From: Muricea muricata
Taxonomy: Eukaryota; Cnidaria; Anthozoa; Malacalcyonacea; Plexauridae
DNA: 64,000 nucleotides
Direction: 5' to 3'
NCBI GenBank assembly: GCA_963855995.1
Contig: OY979724.1
Coordinates: forward strand, 8,441,032 to 8,505,031
Shown here: positions 9,777-34,706 of the stretch, piece by piece
How the letters are laid out: each line of letters opens with the position of its first letter
Numbering within the stretch: the first letter of the stretch is position 1
Notes under the pieces: generated by a model
Database searches by the model: none
What the model was told of the DNA's origin: nothing
Seen by the model: only the letters and a program-made list of their open reading frames with translations
Translations under genes and position numbers: made by a program

Positions 9777-9904
9777 ATGGGCATCTCAATTGAGCAATAT
9801 CGACAGAGAATAGGATGTTTTGGAATACTTGGAAGTTTCAAAGGCATAAATTGTGAGAGAAACTTGGGAGAATCAAAGCTGAAAGACTTTTGTGCTGTTG
9901 TAAG
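9777..9904 (+). CDS. Gene A exon 1: N-terminal leader of 2A-REase-NACHT-LRR protein
   Basis: ATG at 9777-9779 opens 42 codons ending GTA AG before a donor gtgagc (phase 2). It starts MGISIEQYRQRIGCFG and ends KDFCAVV-R. The phase matches the 2A exon at 17421 exactly (AG|G = Arg). The exon is kept almost unchanged at 43261-43388 with the same start, length and donor position, while flanking sequence diverges, which supports a real coding exon. Upstream in-frame context suggests this ATG is the true start. The gene reads: leader - 2A - endonuclease-like - linkers - endonuclease-like - NACHT-LRR. Expression and splicing are inferred, not shown. Confidence 0.78.
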
Positions 9905-10810
9905 GTGAGCTATATAAAATGTTCTACGTAAGCAAATTAATAGACTATGAACCGAACTAACTTGGTTTAGCTGAATTTGTTACACTGTAAATTTGACCAA
10001 ATATCGTTTATTTATACACTGCCAAGATTGGTTATCATGTGTCCCAGGAATTTTAACTTTTAAGAGTTAAAACCCCTAACTACAAATGTTGTCGAACTTT
10101 TAACTGTTGTCAGGCTAGCTGAGCAATTTAACAATTCGCTAGGTGCTCAAATTGCTAGGGCGATAAAAACTAGTCTTCACTGGAAAGTTTCTAATGTGCG
10201 ATGATCCCAATCTATGATATTTCCCACAGGTTATATAATTATGTTTTCCTATATTTTGAGCATGTTTTGATCAAACTGTTTTACGCTATACATTTAAAGC
10301 ACAGACTGCAAACATTCTTATGTTGTGCATAGCAACGCTTGCCGTTGAATTTGAATAAAATTCAGATTTGTGGAAATATGCAAATTTATATGCAGTAGAA
10401 AACACAGATGTTTGTGAACAATGAAGCAACGAAACGAAATGAATGAAAGGACAAAGCGAAGAAATGTATTTCGTTGTTTTGTTTCACTGTTTTGCTTTGT
10501 CTTTTTGCTGTTTCATTGTTTAGATTTGTGCGGAAAACCCAACGATTATACCTGTTACTGCACCGGTCATATTACGTTATATTTTGTTACACATTTATCA
10601 ATTATATTTCGATCCCAGAAGCATAGATTATGCCAGAAGTTTCGATATAATAGTGGTTTATTCCACATCAAACGCTCTACACAGCTAATGAAGCAGAAAT
10701 ATCAAGTAGCCTCGACTTGAAAATCAGTTAACTCTTCATCATTTAAAGCGGGTAAAAAACTAAGAGCATTTTTGATTTAATTAAAAAGAAATTTGAAGAA
10801 TGCCCTATTT

Positions 10811-11012
10811 AAGAAATAGAAAACGAGTCGCGTGCGTTTATAGCGTGATAATGCACGCGGGAAATGTTAGGAGAATACGAGAGAAGTGTGTAAAACACGA
10901 GGCGTAGCCGAGTGTTTTACACGTTTCTCGAGTATTCTCCTAACATTTCCCAAGTGCATTATCACACCATAAAGGCACAAGACGAGTTTTTCTATTTCTT
11001 TTATAATATAAG
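10811..11012. repeat. Foldback element 1 (hairpin)
   Basis: Near-perfect inverted repeat with arms of about 80-95 nt around a small loop (GAGGCGTAGCCGA). Outer arm CGAGTCGCGTGCGTTTATAG pairs with its mirror near 10965-10990. It ends in TTATAATATAAG, shared with foldback element 2. Confidence 0.8.
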
Positions 11013-11943
11013 AACGTTATTGCACAGCAAACAATATTTTCAAACAGATTGATGATAAAATTCTCCTTACATGTCAAGATTGACGTCACGCAAATGCTTT
11101 TACTCATTGCTTAGCAACAAGCTCACATTTTTAAGCGGCCGGCGAAGGAAGTGAACTTTTTAAGCAAAAAAAAAAACCCAGATTTTCGATACTTATAATT
11201 TTAAAAAAGCTTTAAAAAGGGTAGGATTGATACAAGAAGTAATTTACAGCTGTTTTGCTGCATATGGCATGAGAGTGGGCAAGAAAGTCGAACAATCTGG
11301 TCTTTTCGTCGTCCTGTTTTGTTTCCGTTTGCTGAAAGTATGGAATATATTTTTTTGTGTTTCGTCGATGATACGTCAACGAGTTTCTGTCCCGATAACA
11401 ATTAAGGTATTTTTTGTGATAAAATTAGTTTAGTTTTTGTAGTTTTCTTGCACTTTTTCACGGTTTTTTGTGTTTTTTCGCTGCCTTTTTAAAGTTTTGT
11501 CGAGTCGTTCAATCGAATTCGTACTCAACGAAAACAGCTACGAATGTTTTTTTTTTAAACTTTATCGTTTTGCTTTGCCCGGTTTTCTTTATTTTCAATC
11601 TGGAAATTTTACAGTTTACCGTACCGTAGTCAGTACTCTAGGAATTACGAAATACATACGCCACCAAAACATATTATAAAAGAACGAGAAAATGGTCACG
11701 TCATCGCACACTGACGTTGTTTGGGTACGGTAAAGTGTAAAGTACCCTTCAATCCATTTTTTTCTCCTTATTTTCACGCCGTTTTTTTTCTACATTATAT
11801 TATAATTTGTGCATAAAAACTACGCTAAATGTGGTCACAGTCTCCCGGGAAACAGGATACAAAACAAAAAAACCAGCGTGCTGCGTGCATTGTTGTGTTA
11901 AAATGCACGCTCGGTAACCAATCACATTGCAGATTTTGCACTA

Positions 11944-12162
11944 CTTATATTATAATTAAGAATTAAAAAACGAGTCGCGTGCCTTTATGGTGTAATAATG
12001 CACGATGGGGGAATGTTGGGAGAATACGAGAGACGCTTGTAAAACACGAGGCGTAGCCGAGTGTTTTACAGGCTTCTCGAGTATTCTCCCAACATCCCCC
12101 CGAGTGCATTATTACACCATAAAGGCACGAGACGAGCTTTTTTAATTCTTTTATAATATAAG
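11944..12162. repeat. Foldback element 2 (hairpin)
   Basis: Starts CTTATATTATAA and ends TTATAATATAAG, an exact inverted terminal repeat. The inner arms (CGAGTCGCGTGCCTTTATGG and its mirror) are over 70 nt long and enclose the same GAGGCGTAGCCGA loop as element 1. The family is probably a palindromic MITE. Related right ends (CCAATCA..TTGC..CTTATATTATAA) occur at 11918-11955 and 12918-12957. Confidence 0.82.
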
Positions 12163-13914
12163 AAGAAATTGCAGGGCAACAAGTCCAACAGCAAAATTTA
12201 TTTATTAGATCAATAATAAAATTCTCTTTACATTCATTTAAGATGTTGCTTAGCAACAAAAACAGCTCGGTTCAAACGGCGTGACAACAATATAGTCAGC
12301 AGTCAGCAGTATTTAGGCGAATTCTTGCCCAAAAACCTTTCAAAAACATCTAAAATTTGCCAACAATTGCAAAGGAGCTTAAAAATATAACATAAAATTG
12401 TCAAAGAACTAATCACTGTTCGATTTAAACACGTTCTGGACGCTGCCGATCGAGCAAGAAGTAAACATGCCGCCGGCCAAGGCCGTGGAGTAATTGTGCA
12501 GCTCTGTGTTTGTCGTCGAACTTGCAGAGGATAACGCCAAAGTTTTCTAGTGAAGGTACTGCGGAGTGGATATTTAGTAGTTAAGATTTTCGAAGATATG
12601 GGTGTAATATAAAAGTGTCGTAAAATGTTGTACGGACTACGGTTTTGCTTGAATTTCGCGCATTGCATGAAAAAACTTATGGCAAATGCAACGACAATAA
12701 TGTGAAAATGATTAAATTTACCTTGTGGAAAAAAATTTCTGTTCTTACTATAGTCTGTAGTCTTTAGTAAAATGTGTATTTAAAAGCCGAGTTTGTTTTA
12801 GTACCTACCTTTAAAAGTGGAGACAGCCATAAATGTTGAATTTTTGTTTACTTACAAGAGGCGGGAAATTTCAAAAGCTACAAGCGTGCATTATAGCCTC
12901 ACAATGCACGCGCGTTAGCCAATCAAATTGCTCGTTGTATCGCACTTATATTATAATGCTATTTTAAATGCTACTTGGTGAGGACGTAGCTTTACTATCA
13001 AGTACAGTGATTATGAATGTCCGAGACTTGTCACGAGAAATGAATCCGGTTTACACGGCAAAGCCGAAGAAAAAATTGTGACACGTGTTTGGCGCGGGGT
13101 ACAAGACCTACCCATTGTATTTTATAAAGGAATATGGCATGGATAATGCTTTTTGGCAACGGAGCTGCAAATATATGATGAACATATGCGATTTGTTGCG
13201 ACGAAAAAACGGTTTGCTCTTTGCAAAACTGGTGGAAAAACCCCAAGACAACAAGTACACATGCCCAAAAGTATAATATATAGCATAGGAAAGCTTTAGA
13301 AATCCGTTTTGGATGAGTTACAGAACCGATGTTTCAAATATTCCTGGTGTTGTTCAAATTCAAAATAATCAAATCGTTAATGTTTCCATGCATGCAACGA
13401 CGCTACGAAAATATCGAGGTTTCTTTGTCAAATGTCGAGTATCTCGGCAATGTTGTCAGAATCAAGGTCCCGCTAAAATCATTTAATGTCAGCAAAGCAA
13501 AGACAGCAAAATACTGCAAAAATTTTCCATAGCGAAATTGTACTGTTATATGCAACATAACCACAAACTCAAAGGTTTGCAAAGCGGTATCCAAAACTTC
13601 AACCAAAACGAAAAGGATGGACGATAATAAAATACACGGTCAGTAGTGATGTTTTCAGTACCATTTGTCTTTTAGAGTATATGTTTGCCTCGCAAGAAAA
13701 CGCACACGCAGGACAAACAAACTAGCTCGATCTTTACGATCGCAAATCCAGTGTCGATATAATAGTTGTCTACGTCGTTCATAATTGTAAAGCACATTAA
13801 CGCGTTTCGTGGCCCACCTTTTTTTAGAGGGGGGGGGGAGTGCTTACCTAAAAGTCATTTTATTTTACAAGGGAGTGAATAGTATGGCATGGAAAATGCT
13901 TTCTGGCCAATTAA

Positions 13915-14163
13915 GCCTGGTCCTCACTAGTGACATAAGCATAAGCACAAGATAAAACAAAAGGCAAAACAAAGAAATCCACTGAAGCGTACGACATAAG
14001 CATCGACATAAGAATAACACAAGCATAAGACTACGAGCATAAGCTATGGCAGAACAAAAGCAAATTCAAAAGAAAATTCGTTTTGCTTTGTCTTCGCAAA
14101 CCTCAAACGAAAATTTATCCTTTGTTATTTTGCTTATGCTTATGTCGCTAGTGAGGACCAGGC
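13915..14163. mobile_element. MITE with GCCTGGTCCTCACTAG termini
   Basis: Left end GCCTGGTCCTCACTAGTGAC is mirrored by GTGAGGACCAGGC at the right, with further internal ATAAGCATAAGC mirrored as GCTTATGCTTAT. TTAA flanks the left end and T-TTAA the right, suggesting a TTAA target duplication (piggyBac-like; tentative). No coding capacity. Confidence 0.72.
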
Positions 14164-14932
14164 TTTAAGCCCTCTGGTACATTACACCGGATTACTTTTC
14201 ATATACCGGATTAATTTTTGCACCAGTGGTTTACACTACGCCGTCGCGCTTTGTGTCGCCCGCTCTTTTTCTAATTAGCATAGTAAAAATCCTATTGTTC
14301 TCTAAGAATTATTCAAAAGTCTTGCACCGGAGCGTACCGGATTTGTTGTTTACACTTGACTTTCCCGGTACGGCACATACCGGATTACTTTTCGTATCAC
14401 CAACAAAGCGGAGTGATTTGTACTCCGCGGCACGTACGTACCAGATTGCAGTGTCAGTGGCGTAATGTGAAGAACAGCCTAATCCGGTATAAAAATCGCG
14501 ACCCCCCCCCCCGATGTAATCCGTTAATTCACCGAATAAATCGCGTATTGTTATGAAGTTCGCACAGGCGAACAATGCTTTGTGTTCAAAGAGAAGGGGG
14601 CCACGTCGAAGGTCAAGGCGCTTGATACTTGTAACTTCTTTAAATAATTGTACATGTAAGTAAAAAGAGTTGTTTTGCTGACTGTTTTGCTCCAGGCACG
14701 TAATTTTTCTGGCTGAAACAATCGGTTTAACGGTTTTTTGTGTTCAGCTTAGTGCTAGGCCATTCAAAGTTCTAATACCTGTAAGTGATTTCAACAGCGT
14801 CATTTTTCAGGGACGCTCTGGAGCACTTATAGTGGTGGGCCATCCAAATTATAACAATAGTTGAATTCAATAACGTCCTCTTTTTGTGGAACACCCTGTA
14901 GTGTTAAGAGGCCTAAAGAACAGGGGTCGGCT

Positions 14933-15153
14933 GTACGAAAGGTGAATAACGCTATCCAGCCGATGTAGTGATTTTCTCAAACTTTCTAAGCATGTTCAGT
15001 AACTGGTAAAACCCATAATAAAGTTAACTGTTTTCGAGTTAAAGTCACTTTTTATCTCTTGCAAGTTCAATATCCCTGGTATCACTGCTTTTTATGTCTT
15101 TCTGCAGCAGTTGAAAAAATCAACCGGTGGATAGCGTTATGCACCTTTCCTAC
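14933..15153. mobile_element. MITE with GAAAGGTG..AACGCTATCCA termini
   Basis: Left end GTACGAAAGGTGAATAACGC and right end (reverse-complemented GTAGGAAAGGTGCATAACGC) match over about 28 bp. Non-coding, 221 bp, inside gene A intron 1. Confidence 0.65.
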
Positions 15154-15310
15154 AAGCTGTCCCTGCAAAGATGATGAATATCCAGGATTTGTTGCGACGA
15201 AAACGCGGTTTCGAAAATTTAAAACGGAAATTCATTTGCTATTTCATTGCCAAATTGTTTGTTGATTAGCATATAGACAATACAAGATGATCAATATAAT
15301 TGGATCACGG

Positions 15311-15492
15311 TCAGGGTTCTCACAATCTGAGGAAATATCCTTAGATTTTTGCTGTTTCTATGGGGGTGGGATTAGGCTTATCATGAGGATATTATGCATT
15401 CCTTTCAAAATTTTATTGTTCGGCTAATTCCCAACCACCCTCCCCATTTAGAAACAAGGATATGGAAATTAGTTGTGAGAGCGCTGATCTCG
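15311..15492. repeat. Imperfect palindromic repeat
   Basis: TCAGGGTTCTCACAA at the left is loosely mirrored by TTGTGAGAGCGCTGA at the right, with internal GGGGGTGGG / CCACCCTCCCC pairing. Probably a decayed MITE; the limits are approximate. Confidence 0.4.
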
Positions 15493-17420
15493 GTCATCAC
15501 ACATTGCACAAAGCATCTGCATGTATACAGTGCAGTAGTGTGAACGATATTTAAAGGCAAGCGATTCGGTTATCGCTTGAAAGTGCCCAGAAAAGATTTC
15601 AAACAAGCTAGAGGTGTTGAAAGTTATTAAGCAACTGCTATTTCATCCGAAACGTATAGAAAACCAAAGGAAAACGTGTTTTTTTACAAGAGGATTATCA
15701 AAAAACTAAAATACACTAACGATACCTGAATTTCTTCAACGTAATCAGCGGGAAGTCATGAAGAACGTTACAGCCAGTCAACAGTGGCATAATATAAGTA
15801 TGCTAGCCACAATTTAGGAAGGCAAATTTATCGACAAGTTGTGAAAACCTGACTGGCATTAATGAAAATACAGGGTATTGGATGTCTTCCACGTGATATT
15901 CACTGATGAATGCCCTGTTCTGGATGGACCGGACGATCCTCCCACTATTCTCCTGCAGTCCGAGTACCTAATTAGCAAGATAAGACGTGTCATGACCAAC
16001 CATCAATGATATAGTATTTTCGGACCACTTTGGACCAAAAAGGTTGTGAAGATCGACTCCTGGATATGCGTTTCTAAACAAACACTTTCTAACTTAGTGA
16101 AATAAAAGCATCAAGGTACGCTAGATATTAGCTGGTGAAATATAGAATTAAGGATGACACAGTATATAGCTACAACGATAAAATATGGAATGCTCTAACC
16201 GACGGTGAGGGTTTCTGTTGAGATCCGTCGAAGCACCTAGCGACCAGTACTTTTTAAACTTACGTACTACTTTAAAAACGTTTTTAACGGAGAAATTTCA
16301 GTTGACGTGGACAGTGTATTGGTCTACATGCTGTCTTACGGGCACGATGTTCTGGTCTCGAACCCAGGGAGTGACATTTATTTCTTGTTATCGGTTTTAT
16401 TTTTTTTCAAAGTTATTTTTCTTCAAAAGTATAATTTTTTAAGATTTTTCCGTTTTGTGACGTATTCCTCGTTCTTTAGACTATTTATATACATCTGTCA
16501 CTTTTGCCATAGCAACGACAGTTTTTGTAGCTTCCGTGAAAAAATTCGAGAGAATTATCTAGTAATAATAACAGTCAAAAAATACGGATCTAAATCGTTA
16601 ATTTTGCATTATATAAAAAACTGTATTGAGCCACCTTATGCCAATACCAATGACACGGAATTATTTTTGAAAGACGTGATAAGAGGTAATTTGTAACCGT
16701 ATGCTTTGTATCCAGAGGCGTCTTTATATGATTTGTCAAAACAAAACATTCATTTGTTGTTGACTGATTTGTAATATATTTATGACGTTACATTTTTTTA
16801 CCTAAACAGCTGAATTTGCATAATTTTAACCACCAGGTTTCATATATAACTGGCAAATTTTTCAATGATATCATCGGCATAACTATTCTTATAACAACTT
16901 ATAAAATGCCATTTCAAATGACTGTGCAAAGGATATGACAATTTTAATAGACCATACCCATAATGATGTCATTGATGGCAGTTAAAACTATACGAATAAG
17001 ACAATAGTCCTCAATGGTCAAAGTAACAGAAAGATTATTAGTGAAGTAGATGTTAAATTTGTATAAAAGTTTAGTAGTGCAATAACAATAAAAGTAAATG
17101 CATATCACGACAACATTCATTTGTACTTTTGTACCGTATATGAGACCTCGTAAGCAATCAAAATGATAGGGCAGGCTAAATGGTACTTGATCTGCGAAAG
17201 AAAATTAGTTTGGCAGGTCATATTTTTTCTCTATCTCGAGCCGTTTGACTCTGACCAGGACACAAATAGCAATAAACAAAACAATAAATACATTAAACAG
17301 CATTATTTATAATAAATAGGCCAACCAGAAAAACTGTCAGCATCTGTTTTGGCAGACTTGTTTGACATGTCCATATTTTCGACCAAATCATAATTCATAA
17401 TAGTAATTTTTTATTGGCAG

Positions 17421-17527
17421 GTTGATTTGTCTTGTTGCTCTTGTATCAGCAGTTCTTAGAAGTTCTGTATTTGTCTTGGACCTTACTCAATTTGGAGATG
17501 TTGAAAAAAATCCTGGTCCAAATTCAG
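17421..17527 (+). CDS. Gene A exon 2: hydrophobic segment plus 2A ribosome-skipping motif
   Basis: Exon between acceptor ttggcag and donor gtaact, entered in phase 2 and left in phase 1. Joined to exon 1, residues 44-62 are a hydrophobic stretch (LICLVALVSAVL...) and residues 63-76 are DLTQFGDVEKNPGP, a full match to the 2A consensus D-(V/I)-E-x-N-P-G-P. 2A motifs make the ribosome skip the Gly-Pro bond (established), which would yield a 75-residue leader and a downstream protein starting with Pro. A hydrophobic segment directly before 2A resembles the signal-sequence 2As reported in sea urchin NLR proteins. The exon is repeated almost unchanged at 46018-46124. Confidence 0.86.
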
Positions 17528-20114: not shown

Positions 20115-20201
20115 CTAATTACGAAAGAAAGCAGGGCGCTTACTGTCGACCCTCAATGCTGTATGGTAAACAGTTTGTAATTATGTCTGATTAAGCGACA
20201 G

Positions 20202-20792
20202 TTGTAAAATATTTTCTAGACCAAAGATACAAGTTCCATCTCCTTACTCCAGATGATTTTGAAAATCTTGCTGCCATTGTGCTGAAGCATGAATATGGAA
20301 GACCATTTCATGTGTACAAGGCAGGACGGGATGAGGGTATTGATGGTCAGGCATCGAATATTGGTGTGTCCACAAATGAAAAGATAATCGTTCAGGTAAA
20401 ACACACGAGCAACGAATCAGAAACGTTAAAAGACGGCACACGGAAAAACGTATTTGAAAAGGAAAAATCAAAGGTGGAAAAACTAGTTAAGGAGAACGGG
20501 CTGGAGACATATGTTATTGTTACAAATTATCAACTACCTCGTGGTCAAGCTGACAAACTTGAGAAATGCTTCAGAGAAGATGCAGGTGCAAAAAACGTTG
20601 ACGTTTTTGGATATGAAACACTGTGTAATTCGCTGAATGGCTCAACAATTTTGGCAGGAGAATTAATCGCTCGTTATCCAGTTATCAACCCTGCGTCCAT
20701 CGTGAACACTACTATCTATAGTCAGTGCACCTTTGTAGCTACAGACGAATACGGAGCGTCACCATCTAAACGCCCAAAAGTAGACATAGAAG
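20202..20792 (+). CDS. Gene A exon: restriction-endonuclease-like domain 1
   Basis: A 591-nt exon (acceptor gcgacag, donor gtacag), phase 1 at both ends, 197 codons. It joins the 2A exon in frame, so the skipped product would start P-N-S-V-V-K-Y. Residue 21 is Glu in FENL; residues 44-49 read D-E-G-I-D-G; residues 62-68 read IIVQVKH. This D-G-x-D-G ... Q-x-K pattern is that of Mrr/PD-(D/E)xK nucleases, with Asp48, Gln65 and Lys67 the likely catalytic set. The later YVIVTNY-x-L, LEKCF and VDVFGYETLCN also fit the REase domain found at the N-terminus of bacterial STAND NTPases (nSTAND3-type; from memory). The tail is basic (SKRPKV). Likely role: DNA-cutting effector, by inference only. Confidence 0.72.
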
Positions 20793-21108
20793 GTACAGTT
20801 CTTTATCTGAAAAAGTTTTTGAAACCAAATTAAAATATAATTTTCTGGAAACACCACATAAATTTATTATCGCAAAGCTTTCAAACCGTAAGCTCGAAAA
20901 TTCGAACCAAAATTATATTTTAATTTGATATTCCCCATGCAAACATACAAGGAATTTATTTTTAAAATCAACTATAATTTTGTGGCACTTCACTGGATGT
21001 GGCATAATTTCTAAAGGGTAAATGTGTCTTAATTCGAGTGGAATTAAATCATGTCGAAATTTGAGCCGCGGGAAAATTAAAGTTAAGAAAAATTTGTCAA
21101 CTTTACAG

Positions 21109-21171
21109 GTCATGCGGAAGGTGTCGTACCTAAAAGAACAAGAATGATCAAACGTAAACCAGTCATAGAAG
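21109..21171 (+). CDS. Gene A linker mini-exon L1, copy 1 (basic)
   Basis: 63 nt, acceptor tttacag, donor gtacat, phase 1-1. Encodes HAEGVVPKRTRMIKRKPVIE plus the split Gly. The cluster of K/R around a Pro resembles a nuclear localisation signal. Its end (KR-x..VIEG) resembles the tail of the endonuclease-like exon (KRPKVDIEG), with similar intron sequence after the donor, so L1 probably arose from that exon's 3' end. Confidence 0.62.
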
Positions 21172-21739
21172 GTACATGTACATGCAGTTCTTTATCAGCT
21201 AATATTTTTTAATCAATTATGATTTAGTGGCACTTCACTGGATGTTGCATAATATCTGAAGGGAAAATGTCTCTTAATTCGCGTGGAAATCATGTCGAAA
21301 TTTAAGTAAATAAAAGTACATGAATAATCAAACATGAATAGTAAATAATCAAACCTAAATACACATAAATTACGCTTGCTCTTGTGGTCAGAGCATTGCA
21401 ACGGCATTGCAAAAATGGAGGTTGAATCCTGCCGAAGGACCAGTTTTGTAGGATTCGAGTGCGAACTTGGTCTTGAACAAATTGGATTCGATGTCAAAGA
21501 ACTCGCACTTGACGGAGTTCTACGAGAAGGGAATTCTATCTTTTTTAACTTCGGACTTTGCACTGTCTGTACTTATAAGCTGAAGTGTATTTCTTACCCT
21601 TTCATAATTTAAGAATGACAGTGCTCATTGCAAATTTAAGTCTAGCAATAAGTTTCAAAACTCTTTATGGGGAGCGGTCACATTAGAAAAGTTTCTGTCA
21701 TAGTGGCTTTGAAAACTTGCATTTCTTTTTACGACACAG

Positions 21740-21829
21740 ATTCTGACACCGATTCTGACACCGATTCTTCCATTACGCACGCTCAAGCGAATTACCCAGG
21801 ACAAAAATCATTGTCGTCGAAAGCGAAAG
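21740..21829 (+). CDS. Gene A linker mini-exon L2, copy 1 (acidic/Ser-rich)
   Basis: 90 nt, acceptor acgacacag, donor gtaaat, phase 1-1. Encodes DSDTDSDTDSSITHAQ followed by NYPGQKSLSSKAK. An internal 12-nt unit (DSDT) is present one time more than in copies 2 and 3. Frame is kept with L1 and all other exons. Confidence 0.62.
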
Positions 21830-22100
21830 GTAAATGCTTTGAAATATTTTGTAAATATTTTGAATACGTAAGCTCGGATCTTCATCAGTGCAAAAAATGA
21901 TGCGCTAAATTATATTTTAATTTGATATTCACCATGCAAACATACAAGGAACTTATTTTTAAAATCAATTATAATTTTTGTGCACTTCACTGGATGTGGC
22001 ATAATTTCTAAAGGGTAAATGTGTCTTAATTCGAGTGGAATTAAATCATGTCGAAATTTAAGCCGCGGGAACAGTTGAGAAAAATTTATCAACTTTACAG

Positions 22101-22163
22101 GTCATGCGGAAGGTGTCGTACTTAAAAGAACAAGGATGGCAAAACGTAAACAAGTCATAGAAG
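22101..22163 (+). CDS. Gene A linker mini-exon L1, copy 2
   Basis: 63 nt, same splice sites and phase as copy 1; Pro to Leu and Ile to Ala changes in the basic cluster (VVLKRTRMAKRK). Inclusion in a transcript is not known. Confidence 0.58.
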
Positions 22164-22736
22164 GTACAATTCTTTATCTGCAAATATTTCTAGATCAATT
22201 ATGATTTTGTGTTACTTCGCTTGATATTGCATAGTTTTTGAAGGGTAAATGTCTCTTAATTCACGTGGAAATCATGTCGAAATTTAAACCGCGGGAAAAG
22301 TTAAGAAAAGAAGTACGTACATGAATAATCAAACATGAATAGTAAATAATCGAAGCTAAATACACATAAATTACGCTTGCTCTTGTGATCAGAGCATTGC
22401 AACGGCATTGCAAAAATGGAGGTTGAATCCTGCCGAAGGACCAGTTTTGTAGGATTCGAGTGCGAACTTGGTCTTGAACAAATTGGATTCGATGTCAAAG
22501 AACTCGCACTTGACGAATTCTACGAGTATATTACCTTTCAACTTCGGACTTTGCATTGTCTGTATACTTATAAGCTGAAGTGTATTTCTTACCCTTTCAT
22601 AATTTTAGAATGACAGTGCTCATTGCAAATTTAAGTCTAGCAATAAGTTTCAAAACTCTTTTTGGGGAGCGGTCACATTAGAAAAGTTTCCGTCATATAG
22701 TAGCTTTGAAAACTTGCATTCCTTTTTACGACACAG

Positions 22737-22814
22737 ATTCTGACACCGATTCTTCCATTACGCACGCTCGAGCGAATTACCCAGGACAAAAATCATTGTC
22801 GTCGCAAGCGAAAG
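22737..22814 (+). CDS. Gene A linker mini-exon L2, copy 2
   Basis: 78 nt, phase 1-1, lacks one DSDT unit of copy 1 (reads DSDTDSSITHARANYPG). Splice sites conserved. Confidence 0.58.
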
Positions 22815-23085
22815 GTAAATACTTTGAAATATTTTGTAAATACTTTGAATACGTAAGCTCGGATCTTCATCAGTGCAAAAAATGATGCACCAAATTATAT
22901 TTTAATTTGATATTCACCATGCAAACATACAAGGAACTTATTTTTAAAATCAATTATAATTTTGTGGCACTTCACTGGATGTTTCATAATTTCTAAGGGG
23001 TAAATGTGTCTTAATTTGAGTGGAATTAAATCATGTCGAAATTTAAGCCGCGGGAACAGTTGAGAAAAATTTATCAACTTTACAG

Positions 23086-23148
23086 GTCATGCGGAAGGTC
23101 TCGTACCTAAAAGAACAAGAATGGCAAAACGTAAACAAGTCATAGAAG
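23086..23148 (+). CDS. Gene A linker mini-exon L1, copy 3
   Basis: 63 nt, phase 1-1; reads HAEGLVPKRTRMAKRKQVIE, with Leu where copy 1 has Val and the Pro kept. Splice sites conserved. Confidence 0.58.
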
Positions 23149-23719
23149 GTACAATTCTTTACCTGCAAATATTTTTTAATCAATTATGATTTTGTGGTAC
23201 TTCACTTGATGTTGCATAGTTTTTGAAGGGTAAATGTCTCTTAATTCACGTGGAAATCATGTCGAAATTTAAACCGCGGGAAAAGTTAAGAAAAGAAGTA
23301 CGTACATGAATAATCAAACATGAATAGTAAATAATCGAAGCTAAATACACATAAATTGCGCTTGCTCTTGTGATCAGAGCATTGCAACGGCATTGCAAAA
23401 ATGGAGGTTGAATCCTGCCGAAGGACCAGTTTTGTAGGATTCGAGTGCGAACTTGGTCTTGAACAAATTGGATTCGATGTCAAAGAACTCGCACTTGACG
23501 AATTCTACGAGTATATTACCTTTCAACTTCGGACTTTGCATTGTCTGTACTTATAAGCTGAAGTGTATTTCTTACCCTTTCATAATTTTAGAATGACAGT
23601 GCTCATTGCAAATTTAAGTCTAGCAATAAGTTTCAAAACTCTTTTTGGGGAGCGGTCACATTAGAAAAGTTTCCGTCATATAGTAGCTTTGAAAACTTGC
23701 ATTCCTTTTTACGACACAG

Positions 23720-23797
23720 ATTCTGACACCGATTCTTCCATTACGCACGCTCGAGCGAATTACCCAGGACAAAAATCATTGTCGTCGCAAGCGAAAG
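23720..23797 (+). CDS. Gene A linker mini-exon L2, copy 3
   Basis: 78 nt, phase 1-1, identical in coding sequence to L2 copy 2 as far as I can read. Splice sites conserved. Confidence 0.58.
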
Positions 23798-24068
23798 GTA
23801 AATACTTTGAAATATTTTGTAAATACTTTGAATACGTAAGCTCGGATCTTCATCAGTGCAAAAAATGATGCACCAAATTATATTTTAATTTGATATTCAC
23901 CATGCAAACATACAAGGAACTTATTTTTAAAATCAATTATAATTTTGTGGCACTTCACTGGATGTTTCATAATTTCTAAGGGGTAAATGTGTCTTAATTT
24001 GAGTGGAATTAAATCATGTCGAAATTTAAGCCGCGGGAACAGTTGAGAAAAATTTATCAACTTTACAG

Positions 24069-24131
24069 GTCATGCGGAAGGTCTCGTACCTAAAAGAACA
24101 AGAATGGCAAAACGTAAACAAGTCATAGAAG
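24069..24131 (+). CDS. Gene A linker mini-exon L1, copy 4
   Basis: 63 nt, phase 1-1, as copy 3. No L2 follows, because the repeat unit is cut short after about 24640. Confidence 0.58.
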
Positions 24132-25249
24132 GTACAATTCTTTATCTGCAAATATTTTTTAATCAATTATGATTTTGTGGTACTTCACTTGATGTTGCAT
24201 AGTTTTTGAAGGGTAAATGTCTCTTAATTCACGTGAAAATCACGTCGAAAATTAAGCCGCGGGAAAAGTTAAGAAAAGAAGTACATGAATAATCAAACAT
24301 GAATAGTAAATAATCAAACCTAAATACACATAAATTACGCTTGCTCTTGTGGTCAGAGCATTGCAACGGCATTGCAAAAATGGAGGTTGAATCCTGCCGA
24401 AGGACCAGTTTTGTAGGATTCGAGTGCGAACTTGGTCTTGAACAAATTGGATTCGATGTCAAAGAACTCGCACTTGACGGAGTTCTACGAGAAGGGAATT
24501 CTATCTTTTTTAACTTCGGACTTTGCACTGTCTGTACTTATAAGCTGAAGTGTATTTCTTACCATTCCATAAGTTTAGAATGACAGTGCTCATTGCAAAT
24601 TTAAGTCTAACAAAAAGTTTCAAAACTCTTTGGGAGCGGTCACATTTTGCTCAATTTGAAGAGAAAATAACGATCCCCCCATGAACGGTATACTTGCTAT
24701 ACTTGTTCATTAAAAAGACGCAAATAACGTGTTGTTTTACTATTCGCTAATATTTGTTTTGATGCAACAAACTTGTGAAAGTTTACTTTGTGATGAGAAA
24801 ACAAATAAAATAGAAATAACATGAAATATGTCGACTTCTTAACTGTTGTCTGCCACGGGTTGAAGCGGAATAAATGACTTACAAGCTAGCATGTGAGAGC
24901 CTAGCTCGCCCACATAGTAGATACAATACAGAGGTTTCACTCGGAGGTGCGAAGTGTTCCTGATTTTCGGCTTGACTTACTGAAAGAATGCCTCCAGAGG
25001 AATGTTAAGTGGATGTCAAAAGGCGATGAACGAATTCAAAGTACAAAACTGATGGAGCTGCTCTAGCATGCGTTTAAACTTGACCGATGCCGAAAACAAC
25101 TCAAAAGCGCCTTTCGAAAGTAAGCGTTCCCTCGAAAGTTATAAGTGTTCCTTGAGACCACTAATTACGAAAGAATGCAGGGCGCTTACTGTCGACCCTC
25201 AATGCTATATATGGTAAACAGTTTGTAATTAAGGCTGATAGAGCGACAG

Positions 25250-25840
25250 TTGTAAAATATTATCTAGATCAAAGATACAAGTTCCATCTCCTTGCTCCAG
25301 ATGATTTTGAAAATCTTGCTGCCATTGTACTGGAGCATAAATATGGAAGACCATTTCATGTGTACAAGGCAGGACCAGATGGGGGTGTTGATGGTCAAGC
25401 ATCGAATATTGGTATGCCGACAAATGAAAAGATAATCGTTCAGGTAAAACACACCAGCAACGAATTAGAAACATTAAAAGACGGCTCGCGGAAAAATGTG
25501 TTTGAAAAGGAAATACTCAAAGTAAAGAAACTGGTCAAGGAGAACGGGCTGGAAACATATGTTATTTTTACAAATTTTCAGCTACCTGCTGGTCAAGCTC
25601 AGCAACTTGAGAAATGGTTTACAGAAGCAGGTGCAAAAAAGGTCGAGGTTTTTGGATATGAAACAGTATGTAATTTGCTGAATGGCTCACTAACTTTAAA
25701 AGCAACATTAATTTCTACTTATCCAGTTATCAACCCTGCGTCGAGCGTGAGTGCTATTGTCTATAATCAGTGCACCATAACTTCAAACGAAGACAGACCA
25801 TTGCCATCTAAACGTACAAAATCTGAACCAGACATAGAAG
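25250..25840 (+). CDS. Gene A exon: restriction-endonuclease-like domain 2
   Basis: A second 591-nt, phase 1-1 exon (acceptor gcgacag, donor gtacag), clearly paralogous to 20202-20792 along its whole length and with the same preceding intron sequence. The active-site pattern is kept and is closer to family consensus: residues 44-49 read D-G-G-V-D-G, and 62-68 read IIVQVKH. The tail is SKRTKSEPDIE. It would splice in frame into the NACHT-LRR exon (GAA G|AG CTC). Either both domains are in one protein (tandem nuclease) or the two exons are alternatives. Frame and motif conservation argue that both have been under selection. Confidence 0.72.
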
Positions 25841-26035: not shown

Positions 26036-26200
26036 GATGTTTCGCGGATAGAAATGTAGGATTTAACTACACAATGCAGAGAACTTTATTATCATACTGA
26101 AAACTTATTTCAGACCAGAGCATATGCATTTTACCCCTCTTATACGCTAACTATACATCATAGCAATCATAGATTAAACAAGTATATAGTCTTCGTATCT
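26036..26200 (-). repeat. LTR-like remnant of the gypsy element (3' side)
   Basis: GCGATGTTTCGCGGATAGAA..GTAGGATTTAACTACA matches TGATGTTTCGCGTATAGAA..GTAGGATATAGCTACA at 31817-31870. The two flank integrase sequence on both sides, as LTRs should. Confidence 0.55.
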
Positions 26201-27288: not shown

Positions 27289-27296
27289 TTGTATAT

Positions 27297-30200
27297 TACA
27301 TACGGATTCGTTGGTATCTGCTTGGAGTGTTTGTTTGCTAACGCACGAGCTGAATGTAGCTTCTACCTACATACATATTGTGTAACTGCTAGAGTTCTTG
27401 TGAGTTGTGTTCTGGCGGGTTGGAGCCTTAAATTCCTAGACAACAGAACAGCAGAATTGTATGTAGTATTTGTATATATATTGTGATTTGAGGACAAACA
27501 TGTCGGGAATTTTAAGATTGTTTTGGACTTGGATTTGTGATTATGATAGCTTGAAAGAATTCGTAAGTGCCAGTCTTATCCTACAAGGAACGTGGTCATC
27601 GCCAGCGAATGAAAAGAAACTTTTTGAGGCGGAGGGTCTTTCGGTTCTCTGGCTAAAAAACAAAAAGCTCCTTGCAGTTGATGGAAAGGATGCGAAAGAA
27701 ATTCGTAGTCGATTGATCAAAGCCATGTGTGCAAGCGGTGACTTGCTTGCGTAGACAGGGCTACTAATACTGAGAGTTTTGTTGCATACCAGGGCGAAGT
27801 CATGTTACATGACTGTCCTACTTCGACGGAACAAGCGCAGTCAAGTGTTCAATTTGATAGTGCAAAGTGCATTGAAAACCTTAAAATTGATTAAGTGATA
27901 AACAACGAGACTATTCGCTCGTTGGCTGAATCCGTGGACCGGCTCGCCTCAGCACTAGGTGAAATCCAAAAAAAAGTGAATTTTGAGGCGTAGGATCGAT
28001 GTGGTAAGTGCAAGAATGATTTTTTGCTTGGAAAACATGTTGGTATAAAGTACTCACAAACATCTTTTAGCCCTGATAATGCCATTGTTTTAGAACAATC
28101 AGAGGAACTGAGTGTAAACAAAAGTGAATATAAATTGCCATCCATTGAAATGTTGGAAAAAGTCACTAGTACAATAGATTTAACGGTAAACAACCAAATT
28201 AACGATGCTAATGTTATGTTGTTGAATTTTTCCCAGTGAACACGCCACCCATTGAAACACTAAACAGAACTACAGGAAATAGCCATTCCAATCAGTCATG
28301 TATAATACTGAATTCCTGCTCAGGCTCATCGAAACAAGATGCGGTACCATTAGATGTTCGAAACCAGATTGATGAGATATGTAATAAAACAAACCTTCAA
28401 AGTATTCCAACCCGAATTACTACGCGGCGGCCTCTTAAACGAAAAACTACTCGTAGCCGAAAATTGTATGGACAAGCTACTTCTATGAAGAAAGTCCCTG
28501 ACAGGCAGGGTTTTTACCCAGTCCCGATTTTCAACCAAACCGATTGGTATCAATACCTAGATTATGTCTCGGGAATAACGCGTCAACAAATGAAAACAAC
28601 TGTAATTTGATCCAAGTTTCGGCGACGACCTCTGCCGATGTCAATAATAACAGAAGCATTGTAAGACAAACTTTAATGAAATGTTGTGTTTTAAATGCCC
28701 AGTCGTTGCGAAATAAATCTGTTGACTTTGTTGACTATGTACTTGATTGTAAATCCGATGTTTGTTGCTGTTACTGAGGGACTGTTCATATGGGAAGAAG
28801 TTTTCCCGGTTGGCGAGAAAACATTTCGACAAGTTTACAAGCGAGATCTCGCCTTACGAAAATAGTATGAAAAGTTACCTTGCGTTCATATGAGACGAAA
28901 AGTTTTCCCGTTAACCGAGATCTCGCTTGATGACAGGCGAGATCTCGGTGACCGAGATAATTTTTATCCCATATGAACACAACTTTCTCGCTTAGCGGGA
29001 AAACTTTCTGTTTTTTACACTTTACAAAATCTACATCATCGCGGGAAACTTTACCCGGTAAGCGGGAAAACATTTCTCCATATGAACAGAACAACATTAT
29101 TTGACCTGTCGAAATGTTTTCTCGGGAACCGAGATAAGTTCTGCCCATATGAACAGGCCCTGAGACATGTTTAAAAAAATCGACACTGCTGCAAAAATTG
29201 AGGCTACCCCACCTGGTTATAAACTCTGCGATCATCCACGTCCTGATAGGACTGGAGGAGGAACAGCGATCGTTTTTCGTGATACTCTGTGTATAACCAA
29301 GCTTGCAGCTGATGTCTTAAATTCGTTTGAATACTCTGAATGGAAGATCGTTTCTGGATCCTTTCGTGTACATTTTGTCCTCATTTATAGACCACCGTAT
29401 TCTACAAATCACCCGGTAACCATCAATACATTCATTGTTGAATTTTCACAGTACTTGGAGACCATTATAATGTCGACGGATCCACTTATTATCACTGGTG
29501 ATTTTAATATCCATGTCAATTCAAAAACAGATGGTGATAGTATGAAGTTTGTTGATCTGCTATTGTCCATGAGTTTGCAACATGGTCACGAAATCAACCT
29601 TGCAAAGAAGGAAAGAAGGAGAGCATAGAGAAAATGGCGGACTACAAAAGTGACGGCAGATTTTAATAAATTTAAATCAATGAAGAGCCATTGTACTCAT
29701 TTAAAGGTGGAAAGCAAAATGCTCCTTTTTCTCTGACTTTGTTAAAGTAGACAGAAATAACCAAGGGACCCTTTTCAAAGCTATCAAGGGAATGCTAGTG
29801 GAAAGCAATGCAGTAAGTTTCCCCGGACGTAATGAACAGCTCTCGTCAATGAACTTGGCAAATATTTTGTTCAGAAAATCTGTAGTATCCACTCTGAGAT
29901 AAACAACGAGATCTCTTCAAATAATGATGGTCACGTAGATCCTCCAAGTGATGACAATGAGGAGTATCCGGGTGATGTATCGCATTTCGATGCGTTTGAG
30001 CTCTTATCTGAAGATGATGTCAGAAAGTTTGTTGTGGATTCACATAAAAAATCCTGTTATCTTGATCCAGTGCCGACAGATTTCGTGGTGAAATGTCTGG
30101 ATGTGTTACTTCCTGTGATTACAAAAATAATCAGTATTTCACTTGAAACTGGATACTTCCCTAGAGACTGGAAGGAAGCTATTATTCTTCCTATATTAAA

Positions 30201-31553
30201 AAAGTCTGGGTTAGAGTCCGCTTTTGAAAATCTTCGTCCCGTCAGTAATTTAGGATATATTTCAAAGCTTATTGAGCGAGCAGTGTATAATGAAATGCAC
30301 GATCATATTCTTCGATGCGGCTTTTATCCAGTTTTGCAATGTGCTTACCGGCAGCATCACTCCACAGAAACTGCGTTACTTAAAGTACTCAATGACATTT
30401 TGCTAAGCATGAACAGTCAACGTGTCACTCTCTTGGTTCTTCTAGACCTAAGTTCCGCCTTTGGCACAATTGATCACGGAATCTTGTTAGAACGGTTAAG
30501 GTCGAAATTTGGAAACGTGGAAAAGTTCTTAGTTGGTTTTCTTCCTATTTGTCTGGTCGAAGCCAATGCGTTATGCTAAATGGTATCGCCAGATTTACAC
30601 GGTTTTGCTGATGACACTCAGCTGTATGTGTCATACAAACCTGATTACCCATGTGATCAATGTGAAGCAATTTCAGTAATGGAAAGCTGTGTCAATGATC
30701 TGCGGAAATGGATGATTTAAGATAAACTGAAACTTAATGATGATAAAACTGAATGGCTAATAATTGGATCTAAACAGCAACTGCAGAAACTTAACCCATG
30801 CCATGTACGTGTCGGGAATGCTGATGTTCTTCCTGTGGCAACAGCTCGTGATCTAGGAGTTTGGCTCGATTCAAATTTATCAATGTCATGTCATATAACA
30901 AAGACCTGCGGTGCCGCATTCTATTGTCTTCACAACATCAAACGCATCAGCAAGTTTTTATCTCGGGAAAATCTGTTGATTGTTATACATGCCTTTATTA
31001 CAAGTCGACTGGATTATTGTAATGGTCTCCTGTATGGTTTACCTAATACTGAGTTGATTAAGTTACAGAGGGTTCAGAACGCCGCTGCCAGCCCGGTTAG
31101 TGACCTCAACACGAAAATACGATCATATTACGCCTATTTTACGCGAACTAAACTGGTTACCTGTGAAGTTCAGGATCCATTTTAAACTGCTATTGCTTAC
31201 TTTTAAAGCTCTACATGGAATGGCTCCAAAGTACATAGTAGACTTACTTGTTGTCAAAGTGGAAGGAAACTACCATTTACGCTCTAATGACAGCATAATG
31301 TTAGAGTTCCCTAAGGGAAAATTTTTACGGTCATTTGGTGACCGATCTTTCATTGTAGCAGCTCCGAAACTTTGGAACGAACTTCCGAAAGAAATTCGTA
31401 ACATCTCATGATTCATCTTTTTAAACTAGCTTTTAACATTTATTTATTTAGTGATATTATTATTTGAACATTAGTTATATTGTAATACAGCGCTTTTGAT
31501 CATCATGTATAAAAAGCCCTTTACAAATTATTAAATTATTATTATTATTATTA
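27297..31553 (+). mobile_element. CR1/L2-type LINE, degenerate, inserted in the gypsy integrase
   Basis: Bounded by an 8-bp target duplication TTGTATAT (27289-27296 and 31554-31561) and ending in a TTA/ATT microsatellite tail (31533-31553), as in CR1/L2 elements. Plus-strand order: ORF1 start (27500-27754) with the TWSSPANEKK-type domain also seen in the intact LINE's ORF1; later ORF1 pieces (28024-28610); endonuclease pieces (28680-29620); RT pieces (30034-31411) with RDWKEAIILPI and HHSTETALLK, a damaged catalytic region, ADDTQLYV, and the C-terminal region. Many stops: dead. A 383-bp MITE is nested at 28778-29160. Confidence 0.85.
28778..29160. mobile_element. MITE nested in the LINE, 3-bp target duplication
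   Basis: Ends GGGACTGTTCATATGGG and (reverse-complemented) GGGCCTGTTCATATGGG, flanked by TGA on both sides (28775-28777 and 29161-29163). Removing it restores the reading frame context of the LINE endonuclease. Internal GAGATCTCG and GCGGGAAAACTTT motifs repeat in both orientations. A 3-bp duplication fits a PIF/Harbinger-like origin (tentative). Confidence 0.88.
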
Positions 31554-31561
31554 TTGTATAT

Positions 31562-31760
31562 CCGTCCACTTGACCAACACCACTTCGGGCCAGCGGGAAA
31601 AATTGTCGATCACTACTAATAAGAGGTGGTTACAAGCTGGGATTTCGAGGAGGTCCACGGCAATGTCGCTCCAAGGGTCTTCGGGTAGTTTTGTGGACCG
31701 TACAGGTTCTGATTGGGGTCGTGGTCCCACCAATTGGCATTCGTGTAAGCTTTGACAAGC
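31562..31760 (-). pseudogene. Ty3/gypsy integrase, N-terminal part
   Basis: Minus-strand frame with a zinc-binding C-x-x-C end, then PEDPWSDIAVDLLEIP and LLLVVIDNFSRWPEV, the start of the DDE core. It is continued at 27288 and below after the LINE. Directly beyond it (31800-31812) is GGCGACGAGGG on the minus strand, resembling a tRNA primer-binding site next to the LTR. If so, gag, protease and RT have been deleted. Confidence 0.7.
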
Positions 31761-31816
31761 CGTTCACTTGTTATTACCAAATACGCGTTCTTGGTTTTAA
31801 CCCTCGTCGCCAAAAT

Positions 31817-31900
31817 GTGATGTTTCGCGTATAGAAATGTAGGATATAGCTACAAAATCGTAAGAACTTTATTAACGAACAAAACACTTTAACAGACGTA
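31817..31900 (-). repeat. LTR-like remnant of the gypsy element (5' side)
   Basis: Starts TGATGTTTCGCG and matches the remnant at 26036 over about 60 bp; the remainder diverges or is lost toward the microsatellite. Confidence 0.55.
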
Positions 31901-31948
31901 AACCCATGCTTTTTTACTACCACCACCACCCCACCCACCCCACCCCCA

Positions 31949-31952
31949 CACA

Positions 31953-32028
<76 letters not shown>
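31949..32028. repeat. (CGCA)n microsatellite
   Basis: About 20 perfect ACGC/CGCA units, preceded by a CCACCC-rich stretch. Confidence 0.97.
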
Positions 32029-32409
32029 TACTTCATGTAATATACTATAGTATACAGTAAGTTGATGCAGTTGAAATGCAGTTGAAATAATTTCCATAAC
32101 GTTTTTTCTAAAATGAGCTGTCTTTGTCCAGATTAAAAATTTAGTTTAACTGGGGCAAGTTGTCCATTAGTGTAAGAGAGTTGCTCTAAGTGGGACGTAA
32201 CACTACGATCATGCAAAAGCAAAGGACATAGATAATGTTATATTGCTTTGAATGTCATTAGAAGAAGTTAAGTCACTATACGTCCTGCAAGTACGTGCGG
32301 AATCGATGAGCATTTTTAAAAAGTTATGAAAACAATCTATTACTTTAAAATATTGAATTTTGAACGTGAATGAATTAACTTTTTAATAATTTTGCCTACT
32401 TTGTTTCAG

Positions 32410-34706
32410 AGCTCAAAGAAGTTTTGTGTGAAGGGTACAAGCGCAGAGCAGAAAATTTTCAACCGTTGCCTTGGATTGACAAAATGCGGTTCAAGCTGGA
32501 AAACCTGTACACAAAACTGTCTGTTGTAAAAAGAGAAAAATCTCGCTGGATAAAAACAAAACAAAATGTTGAACTTTCTGTCATTTTCGATAAAGAGGAA
32601 GATGAAGAGTCAGGATCAAGTCCAAAAATTATCCTAATCGAGGGGAGTCCGGGGACGGGTAAAACAACGCTAAGCTTGAAACTTGCGTATGATTGGGCCA
32701 CAGGTAAGATGCCAAACAAGTTTCCAGAAGTAGAGCTGGTTTTGTTGATTAAGTGCCGGGATATGGAAGATAGCATTCAGGAATCAGCGAAGACGCAGCT
32801 TTTGTCTTGGGATAACGATCAATTGCGGAATGCTTTAGACTCTTTTATTCACTCGGATAGGATAATGTTAATCATTGATGGGGTCGATGAGATTCCAAAA
32901 AGTGCGGAAAGTCATGTTGTGAACTTGTTAAACAGAAAAGTTCTGCGAAATTGTTATGTGGTCGTCACATCTAGGCAAGAGAAAGGAATGGAAGTGCGGA
33001 AATATTGCGATAAACTATTAGAAATCGACGGCTTTTCAGATGAAAGTAGAAACAGTTTCATTGATAAATACTTCAAAAGTAACATTGATCTTGCTCAAAA
33101 ACTACAGGAAAAGATACGAACAAGCACTGAGAATAATCTCCAATCGCTGGCCACAAACCCGTTAAATGCATTGCTGTTGTGTGTTGTTTTTGAAGATAAT
33201 GATGGCGATCTACCTACTACGGCAACTAAGCTATATAAAAATATTATAAAGTGTATCTGGACACGCTATTGTAAAAGGAAAAGACCGGACGAAAAAGCTA
33301 TCTCGTTCAAAATGGCTATGCAGACATTGGGTAAATTGGCATACGAATGCCTTATTGAACGCGACACGTTGTATTTTAGCGAAAGCATGTTGAAAGACGA
33401 GGACAAAAAACCGTGTACTAACATAGGTTTTTTGTATAAGGACGATATTAGTACAAAAATATTAAAGCCGCAAAATACGTACTGGTTTCTTCACAAAACG
33501 TTTCAAGAATATTTTGCTGCGTATTATTGTGTATATATTGAAAAAGAAATCGACATGTCAAAGTTATCTTATTACACGCGTAAGGACGGTGCGAAATTCA
33601 TTCAAGTTTTAAAGTTCCTGTCTTCTATGTTGCAGAAAAAAAACACCAAGGATCACAAAAAAGTTATAGCACAACTGGCATCACGCATTTCTCAAAATGT
33701 TGAGTGTGAAAGCAATGAAGGTTTAGATATCATGTGCCAAGTCCTTTCAGAGAATAAGCTCGATAAAGATTTAGCTGGTGCAGTCAAAACCTTCATTCCG
33801 GAAGACTTACTGGTGTTCAGGAAGGAACATTCTATTATGCCTCGCATTTTAAATCTTCTTGGAACAGGAGGTGAAGATAAAGAAACATTAAAATTAGACA
33901 AATTAGACTGCAATCATTTTGATGAAGACACAGAGTGGTTGAGCTTGATTTGCGAAGCACTAACGGAAAACCTCGTTGTCGATGAGATGTATTTGGATGA
34001 TTGTAAAGTAGACGGAACTTTTCTGCAACAAATGTTGTCTGAGAACTCGACTCTACAGTCCTTAAGACTTACATCGATCAATAATATGACTTATGGAGCA
34101 GTGAATACATTGGCGAAGGGTCTATGTGAAAACTCTACTCTAAATGAACTAAGTCTTATAGATATTTATTTGGAAGAGCCCTCCTCAGAATTAACAGGCA
34201 TGGTTGAAATGCTTCAAACTAATGTTACATTAAAAAAACTCTACCTGGAATACAACCCACTTGGTTCTGACGGAGTGACTTGGATTGCCGAGGTACTAGG
34301 ATCGAACCAAGGGCTGGAGGAACTTCATCTAATGAATACCGAATGTGATGACGAGGGAGCAGCAGCACTTGAAAAAATGTTACGCATAAATAAAACGCTC
34401 AAGCTGCTTGCTCTATGTAACGAATTCGACAAACCCGTATTCATCAACAGTATTGGTGACAAGGGAGCAACTTCTCTTGCTGATGTACTGAAGGAATACA
34501 ATTCTTCATTAAGAGAACTTCATCTTTGTGGTAATACAAACATCACAAATACAGGATTAGGAAAACTTATAGAAGCAGTGCAGAGAAACAAGATACTGAC
34601 ATTATATATCGACCTACCTGAACAGATCTGCATGACACTTGATGACGGAACAATGAAAAGAATACAACCATCGTTAAGCTGTTATATTTGCAGTTATGGC
34701 TATTAA
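32410..34706 (+). CDS. Gene A terminal exon: NACHT-LRR receptor module
   Basis: Acceptor tttcag, phase 1, then one open exon of about 765 codons to TAA. Order: a pre-NACHT segment with YKRRAENFQPLPWID and LENLYTKLSVV (typical of invertebrate NLRs); NACHT with Walker A GSPGTGKTT (near 32643) and Walker B IMLIIDGVDEIP (near 32860); a sensor-like VVTSRQ; a helical region with FLHKTFQEYFAAYYC (winged-helix/HD2-like); then about eight ribonuclease-inhibitor-type LRRs with the repeated pattern of about 28 residues (L-x-x-L-x-L..N..G-x-x-x-L-A..L). NACHT proteins are ATP-driven oligomerising sensors; the LRRs probably sense or autoinhibit. No start codon lies before the domain, so it must be spliced to upstream exons. 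About 80% similar to the gene B exon by eye. Confidence 0.9.

Follow-up and report, generated by a model that had tools for sequence, protein, structure and literature searches.

Can an animal immune receptor cut DNA by itself? Well-studied animal NOD-like receptors (NLRs) recruit caspases via adaptors; bacterial STAND sensors often carry out the response on their own, with a nuclease at the N-terminus. The question is raised by a locus of the anthozoan Muricea muricata, a window of 64,000 nucleotides (nt; C9:8441032-8505031), which is the whole stretch of DNA analysed here and belongs to a genome of 74 contigs totalling 453 Mb. An earlier note had described in it a gene joining a 2A leader, restriction-endonuclease-like domains and a NACHT-LRR (leucine-rich repeat) receptor. 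We conclude, with a probability of about two in three, that this gene belongs to a tandem family of animal NLRs with an N-terminal Mrr-like PD-(D/E)xK nuclease as effector, built like the bacterial Avs and bNACHT proteins, for which we infer the splicing, the 2A skipping, the nuclear entry and the cutting of DNA. The nuclease would take the position that a signalling domain usually has in animal receptors, and the sensor may do the DNA cutting, in the manner of bacterial anti-virus proteins.

The window gene and its tandem family

The predicted gene consists of the following exons (a slash in a motif marks a border):

9777..9904, + strand: exon 1, starting with ATG, 42 codons plus 2 nt, donor AAG/GTGAGC
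17421..17527, + strand: exon 2, hydrophobic stretch and 2A (StopGo), LICLVALVSAVLRSSVFVL, then GDVEKNPGP
20220..20792, + strand: nuclease exon A, predicted Mrr-like PD-(D/E)xK, phase 1-1, basic tail PSKRPKVDIE
21109..21171, + strand: mini-exon 1, basic, HAEGVVPKRTRMIKRKPVIE, 63 nt, phase 1-1
22101..22163, + strand: mini-exon 2, 63 nt
23086..23148, + strand: mini-exon 3, 63 nt
24069..24131, + strand: mini-exon 4, 63 nt
25268..25840, + strand: nuclease exon B, phase 1-1
32410..34706, + strand: NACHT-LRR exon with the stop codon, Pfam NACHT 1.4e-22, containing GSPGTGKTT and LIIDGVDE, which we take to be the P-loop (Walker A) and Walker B

All the parts that the earlier note had listed are thus present on one strand, and splicing them as predicted yields a single open frame of 1309 amino acids (aa) with one terminal stop, which bears out the matching phases it had reported. 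Five shorter exon combinations, including those with one nuclease exon alone or with none, are likewise open, all internal cassettes being of phase 1-1. All four mini-exons sit between nuclease exons A and B; two are present in the gene upstream, and the linker may therefore differ in length from one gene to another. The stretch 21081-24667 is built of about four tandem units of about 985 bp, with one basic mini-exon per unit. When the intron from exon B to NACHT and the neighbouring paralogue were scanned for exon-like stretches, just weak, unsupported candidates for further cassettes came up.

The two nuclease exons had been proposed at 591 nt each. Both are present and in frame, but we take them as 573 nt, with acceptors 18 nt further inward (TATTTTCTAG/A at 20220 and TATTATCTAG/A at 25268), because the AG of this inner border is kept in all 14 genomic copies of the exon and the CAG of the outer acceptor is lost in two (L019 and L022). 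The inner acceptor has the TATTTTCTAG form in 10 copies, in a search aimed at such a motif; the outer one (GCGACAG), which by eye lacks a pyrimidine tract, was set aside. Either border keeps the reading frame. At the other end, the donor AAG/GTACAG is found in 13 of the 14 copies and was not located in the frame-broken one.

Those 14 copies, plus a fragment of one, are what a genome search with nuclease exon B returned, and all lie on the + strand of C9:8.388-9.280 Mb. For the NACHT-LRR exon, C9:8.39-9.31 Mb holds 17 long copies, also on the + strand, besides broken copies and fragments; outside C9, among the matches listed (59 of 127 candidates were scored), a fragment at 69%, interrupted by a stop, lies on C2, and the others are partial, at 24-35% identity. 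On C9 there are 17 copies of the 2A exon (89-100% identical to that of the window) and 17 of exon 1 (one partial), and each has one further copy on C5. Writing 1 for exon 1, 2 for the 2A exon, R for nuclease and N for NACHT, the order along C9 is 2RN 12RN 12RRN 12N 12RN 112RN 12RN N 12N 12RN 12N 12RN 12RN 12RN 12RRN 12N 12RN 12N. This string counts a broken NACHT at 9084546 as N and omits the NACHT fragments (near 8.906, 9.292, 9.297 and 9.329 Mb and on C2), the leader exons on C5 and a piece split off from one of the nuclease copies; exon 1 of the first gene in the cluster was not found in the genome search with exon 1. Every nuclease exon (14/14) has a 2A exon before it and NACHT after it, a count that averaged 1.6 in 20,000 label shuffles and never rose above 10. 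The nuclease-bearing genes number 12, two of them carrying the exon twice. Tandem duplication copies exon order, and the constant arrangement therefore shows a stable unit, not 12 independent origins. Two copies 636 kb apart (L010 at C9:8642948 and L011 at C9:9279547) encode an identical nuclease protein, which indicates recent duplication or conversion. That the gene is an animal one agrees with 51 Wnt-family matches in this genome, counted exon by exon, and 0 in 14 control genomes.

Nuclease frames are open in 13 of the 14 copies, with lengths of 573, 579, 588 or 603 nt, all multiples of 3. For the 83 of 91 pairs left after dropping those with dS <=0.05, with the broken copy used as far as its stop, the median ratio of nonsynonymous to synonymous substitution rates (dN/dS) comes to 0.52. 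When the alignment is divided into thirds, the values are 0.68 (catalytic Asp), 0.26 (Q-x-K) and 0.78, from 86, 84 and 77 pairs, so purifying selection is clear in the middle third only. Among three nuclease-bearing genes the NACHT part, cut at residue 490 by our choice, gives 0.49-0.62 and the remainder, mainly LRR, 1.06, 1.55 and 1.71 (dS 0.07-0.14); the mainly-LRR part compared with a nuclease-free neighbour gives 0.87-0.94. This pattern, from four genes compared pairwise and by segment rather than by site, fits a conserved motor with a fast-changing sensor. We conclude that the exon set is confirmed as real and as belonging together, its splicing being predicted; the predicted fusion is supported by conserved order, phase and open frames across the 12 genes, which stand in for RNA support.

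The nuclease domain and its relatives

Both nuclease exons match Pfam Mrr_cat (PF04471) over its curated cut-off of 21 (25.6 and 26.0 bits; 1.4e-5 and 1.0e-5). Their best PADLOC match is PDC-S73 (2.9e-17 and 3.3e-15), followed by families named Aga, presumably for Argonaute-associated, and by ZorD, described as Mrr-like; the Pfam and PADLOC matches are confined to the nuclease part of the exon. DFEN, DxGxD and KIIVQVKHT (QVK) are invariant in all 14 copies, and we take the D ... (E/Q)-x-K pattern to be the PD-(D/E)xK catalytic motif. A first structure prediction from the two window copies alone was poor (pLDDT 61.5); with an alignment of 6 sequences, the two window copies and four relatives, the predicted fold reached pLDDT 82.2 and pTM 0.80. 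Its first Foldseek match in the PDB is Avs4 bound to phage portal (8dgf; E 7.9e-4, probability 1.00, TM 0.49), and weaker rows hold SfsA, EcoT38I, FokI, BstEII and Can2, restriction enzymes among them, mixed with unrelated proteins. A profile test set beforehand thus placed the domain inside the PD-(D/E)xK fold, as the earlier note had proposed: Mrr_cat and PDC-S73 by profile, and Avs4 as nearest fold. Sequence and model together support an Mrr-like PD-(D/E)xK nuclease fold with intact catalytic residues and predicted activity. Over the 190 codons read, six of the 14 copies contain no Met and the other eight have their first at residue 49 (five copies), 80, 159 or 164; as the first Met is absent or lies after DxGxD (residues 37-41), translation needs an upstream start.

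A scan of prokaryote genomes found three relatives of the nuclease among 75 pattern-matching stretches. One from Methylobacterium (L044, 34% identity) and one from Bacteroidales (L045, 29%) each pass the cut-offs for Mrr_cat and nSTAND3 (nSTAND3 1.5e-41 and 1.7e-50), and their PDC-S73 matches reach 7e-150 and 9e-167; the L045 frame has 481 codons and is possibly interrupted, another frame following, and the third relative is situated near a contig end. A viral contig found with L044 as seed (L047) bears a relative of L044, which also has Mrr_cat and nSTAND3 (5.5e-48) over cut-off, and matches PDC-S73 across 750 of 752 positions. Two other viral-contig scans gave no confirmed relative, and phage records gave no match. 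Plasmids contributed 12 records at 26-46% identity, annotated as restriction endonuclease (six), TIR (four) or AAA ATPase (one), or without annotation (one). These bacterial and viral relatives are a small sample found by short patterns. PDC-S73, for which PADLOC itself gives no description, appears from them to be a restriction endonuclease (REase)-nSTAND3 family.

In L044, L045 and L047, as in the predicted window protein, an N-terminal Mrr-like nuclease, 26-34% identical, is fused directly to a STAND NTPase; unlike it, they have nSTAND3 and not NACHT as the NTPase, and the bacterial frames come without LRR hits, introns or a 2A leader. Judged by these sequences, the nuclease domain is a homologue of the one in bacterial REase-nSTAND3 proteins. 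Convergence or descent had both been put forward for the resemblance to bacterial systems. With a nuclease of this kinship and an NTPase that is NACHT and not nSTAND3, domain recombination probably fits better than descent of the whole protein.

The NTPase of the window gene has nSTAND3 at 23.1 bits (cut-off 27.2) and NLRC4_HD2 at 20.7 bits, both under their cut-offs. As nSTAND3 falls short and PDC-S73 matches the nuclease exons only, the window gene is not an nSTAND3 family member. Among the prokaryote families of NCBIfam, the NTPase scores best with the antiphage NACHT protein EruA, at 3.1e-5 and far below cut-off. LRR_6 scores 21.2 bits, below its cut-off of 23.4, and repeats are visible by eye. 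Pfam at E<=1 gave no CARD, PYD, Death or DED family for the nuclease or NACHT exons, and the Pfam search of the window gene gave no HEPN family, the fold of which differs from that of restriction endonucleases. The NACHT-LRR part is probably of animal descent, because NACHT plus LRR occur in an intron-bearing animal gene.

Leader, basic tails and nuclease-free sister genes

GDVEKNPGP in exon 2 matches the 2A consensus D-(V/I)-E-x-N-P-G-P, and the hydrophobic stretch of the exon reaches a maximum Kyte-Doolittle value of 2.45 over 19 aa. The nuclease exons end in a basic pattern (KRPKV, KRPKS, KRLKL or KRTKS) in 10 of 14 copies, with KHPKL in one, none in two and one copy broken; the mini-exons contribute KRTRMIKRK. 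Both resemble nuclear localisation signals. The exon 1 and 2A exon copy on another chromosome (L050, C5:17197901-17207900) is followed about 1 kb downstream by a 710-codon frame with a Death-effector-domain match below cut-off (22.5 vs 35.9 bits); the leader may be a module common to several immune genes. Sea urchin NLRs are reported to have a hydrophobic 2A leader ahead of NACHT, as here, which serves both as signal sequence and as 2A and is active in recoding and dual targeting; unlike the window gene they have a DEATH-type N-terminus in place of the nuclease (PMC4981915).

We suggest that exon 1 and the 2A exon would form a removable leader. Skipping at NPG/P would free nuclease-NACHT-LRR into the cytosol, and where skipping fails the hydrophobic leader would stay on the product and take it into the secretory route. 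Detection of a ligand would fall to the LRR, and the NACHT part would bind ATP and assemble; clustering would then switch the nuclease on, and DNA would be cut, either that of an invader or, in a suicide response, that of the cell itself. The basic tails and mini-exons may permit nuclear entry.

Not all members of the cluster have the nuclease. The paralogue next to the window gene has no detected nuclease exon:

43261..43388, + strand: exon 1 of the neighbouring paralogue
46018..46124, + strand: its 2A exon
55013..57426, + strand: its NACHT-LRR exon, nuclease-free form

The 11 unbroken nuclease-linked NACHT copies are 79-100% identical to that of the window (its own included), and five nuclease-free copies with a leader are 68-73% identical to it; measured against the neighbour's nuclease-free NACHT, nuclease-linked copies are at 70-76% and nuclease-free ones at 87-100%. 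NACHT sequences therefore form two identity groups, and the nuclease marks a gene lineage. For one NACHT (8799725; 75% to the window, 69% to the neighbour) these searches found neither leader nor nuclease. From 2A exon to NACHT, two nuclease-free genes are 89-96% identical to the neighbour in blocks of >300 nt. On its + strand the neighbour's intron holds two frames, 107 and 122 codons long, which match no Pfam family; similar frames recur in the introns of sister genes, at 107 codons in one intron and split in the other. The larger frames in the neighbour's intron are on the - strand and form part of a non-LTR (long terminal repeat) retroelement. That retrotransposon (48202-53097, - strand) has two long open frames, one for an endonuclease-reverse transcriptase of 999 aa and one of 631 aa with a weak GDSL-esterase match under cut-off, and it appears young because the aligned introns of two sister genes show a gap there.

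Mobile sequence is also present in the introns of the window gene. The last intron, the 6.6 kb before NACHT, contains a reverse-transcriptase frame (29836-30579, + strand), which with nearby frames up to 31411 on the same strand forms reverse transcriptase remnants. In the first intron two 93-nt elements (10859-10951 and 12008-12100), 89% alike and palindromic by eye, resemble miniature inverted-repeat transposable elements (MITEs).

Alternative explanations and known systems

Several findings weigh against a working nuclease receptor. One nuclease exon (9139491) and the NACHT at 9084546 are broken; the exon order is inherited through tandem duplication, so that 12 genes are not 12 proofs; the overall dN/dS is moderate constraint, low in the Q-x-K third and higher in that of the catalytic Asp; and the basic tail is not universal. 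On the structural side, the fold model was built on 6 sequences only, and Avs4, at TM 0.49, is the sole PDB match at E<=0.001, with non-nucleases among the weaker rows. Searches of the PDB by sequence, with a single exon and with a 12-sequence profile, gave no significant match, and the Avs4 link is thus one of fold comparison. The introns are long, with retroelement remnants in the one ahead of NACHT.

Could the REase domain be a catalytically idle adaptor or nucleic-acid binder, the NLR signalling through partners and cutting left unused? Enzyme-derived domains are frequently repurposed, nuclease-free sister genes retain the same leader and NACHT-LRR, and dN/dS values of 0.52 overall and 0.68 around the catalytic Asp are what such a domain might show; yet D-x-G-x-D ... 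Q-x-K is invariant in 14/14 copies, with the Q-x-K third the most constrained (0.26), and we consider an idle domain unlikely. Less probable still is a pair of separate products, in which transcripts of 2A leader and nuclease end early, by intron retention or internal polyadenylation, and transcripts of 2A leader and NACHT-LRR skip the nuclease cassettes. The phase 1-1 cassettes do let leader and NACHT join in frame without them, as the nuclease-free sisters are apparently built, and the nuclease frame read past its donor meets a stop within about 50 codons in the copies listed; however, the donor is conserved in 13/14 copies while the frame length beyond it varies, as expected if onward splicing is selected. 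Finally, the bacterial affinity of the domain and the many retroelement frames of the window could suggest that the exon is what remains of inserted bacterial DNA or of a mobile element, inside the NLR cluster by chance; conserved exon borders, dN/dS <1, the same position in 12 genes and PADLOC and Pfam matches that span the nuclease part alone make this a very improbable origin.

We therefore return to an animal immune sensor with a DNA-cutting effector, as the earlier note had it, for which Mrr_cat, PDC-S73, the Avs4 fold and the conserved order argue, cutting being predicted. A fuller proposal is one we hold tentatively, at slightly less than even odds: an inflammasome-like animal receptor would bring along a DNA-cutting effector, a relative of the one in bacterial antiviral REase-STAND proteins, and, once freed through 2A skipping, could also work inside the nucleus. 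If true, this would mean direct sense-and-cut immunity in an animal, replacing adaptor signalling. With the nuclease-bearing genes and their nuclease-free sisters, which are built-in controls, one could test if direct nuclease effectors were retained or regained in animals, and if effectors of defence pass between the STAND proteins of bacteria and those of animals.

Avs (AVAST) proteins have an N-terminal nuclease, a central STAND NTPase and a C-terminal sensor of phage proteins. The window gene shares the first two in its predicted splice form, with Avs4 as the top PDB fold match of its nuclease, and differs from Avs4 in its LRR sensor and NACHT NTPase; from its sequence, it is a gene that resembles a bacterial nuclease-STAND sensor in architecture, and we do not file it as a member of Avs. 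REase effectors in bacterial STAND systems are already known (PMC8195603, PMC7159879). Similar in effector and NTPase are bNACHT25 and bNACHT32, likened here by architecture, in which a PD-(D/E)xK domain degrades DNA upon activation and D48A abolishes this (PMC12169576); by analogy, ligand binding and NACHT assembly would activate the nuclease of the window gene. These proteins are bacterial and have a different C-terminal module.

Among animals, NLRs of corals have already been described that carry glycosyltransferase or further domains (PMC4083563, PMC12314368), and 35 Pfam domains co-occur with NACHT in cnidarians (PMC8260672). The literature, as far as the available article texts go and with supplementary domain lists outside them, where an unremarked table entry is possible, yielded no restriction-endonuclease-like domain on an animal NACHT protein, and neither nuclease nor Mrr occurs in a paper on fungal NLRs (PMC12258605). 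The nearest animal counterparts are the HEPN-NACHT proteins of corals and other animals, with a predicted RNase effector, which are described as expanded in anthozoans and common in corals (PMC3710099, PMC8260672, PMC10236652). Like them, the window gene would be an animal NACHT protein with a predicted nuclease effector; unlike them, it has a restriction-endonuclease fold, with DNA as the expected target. HEPN-NACHT of corals is thus a precedent for an animal NACHT protein with a nuclease, to which the Muricea family adds a restriction-endonuclease type that, so far as the literature covered here shows, is apparently new.

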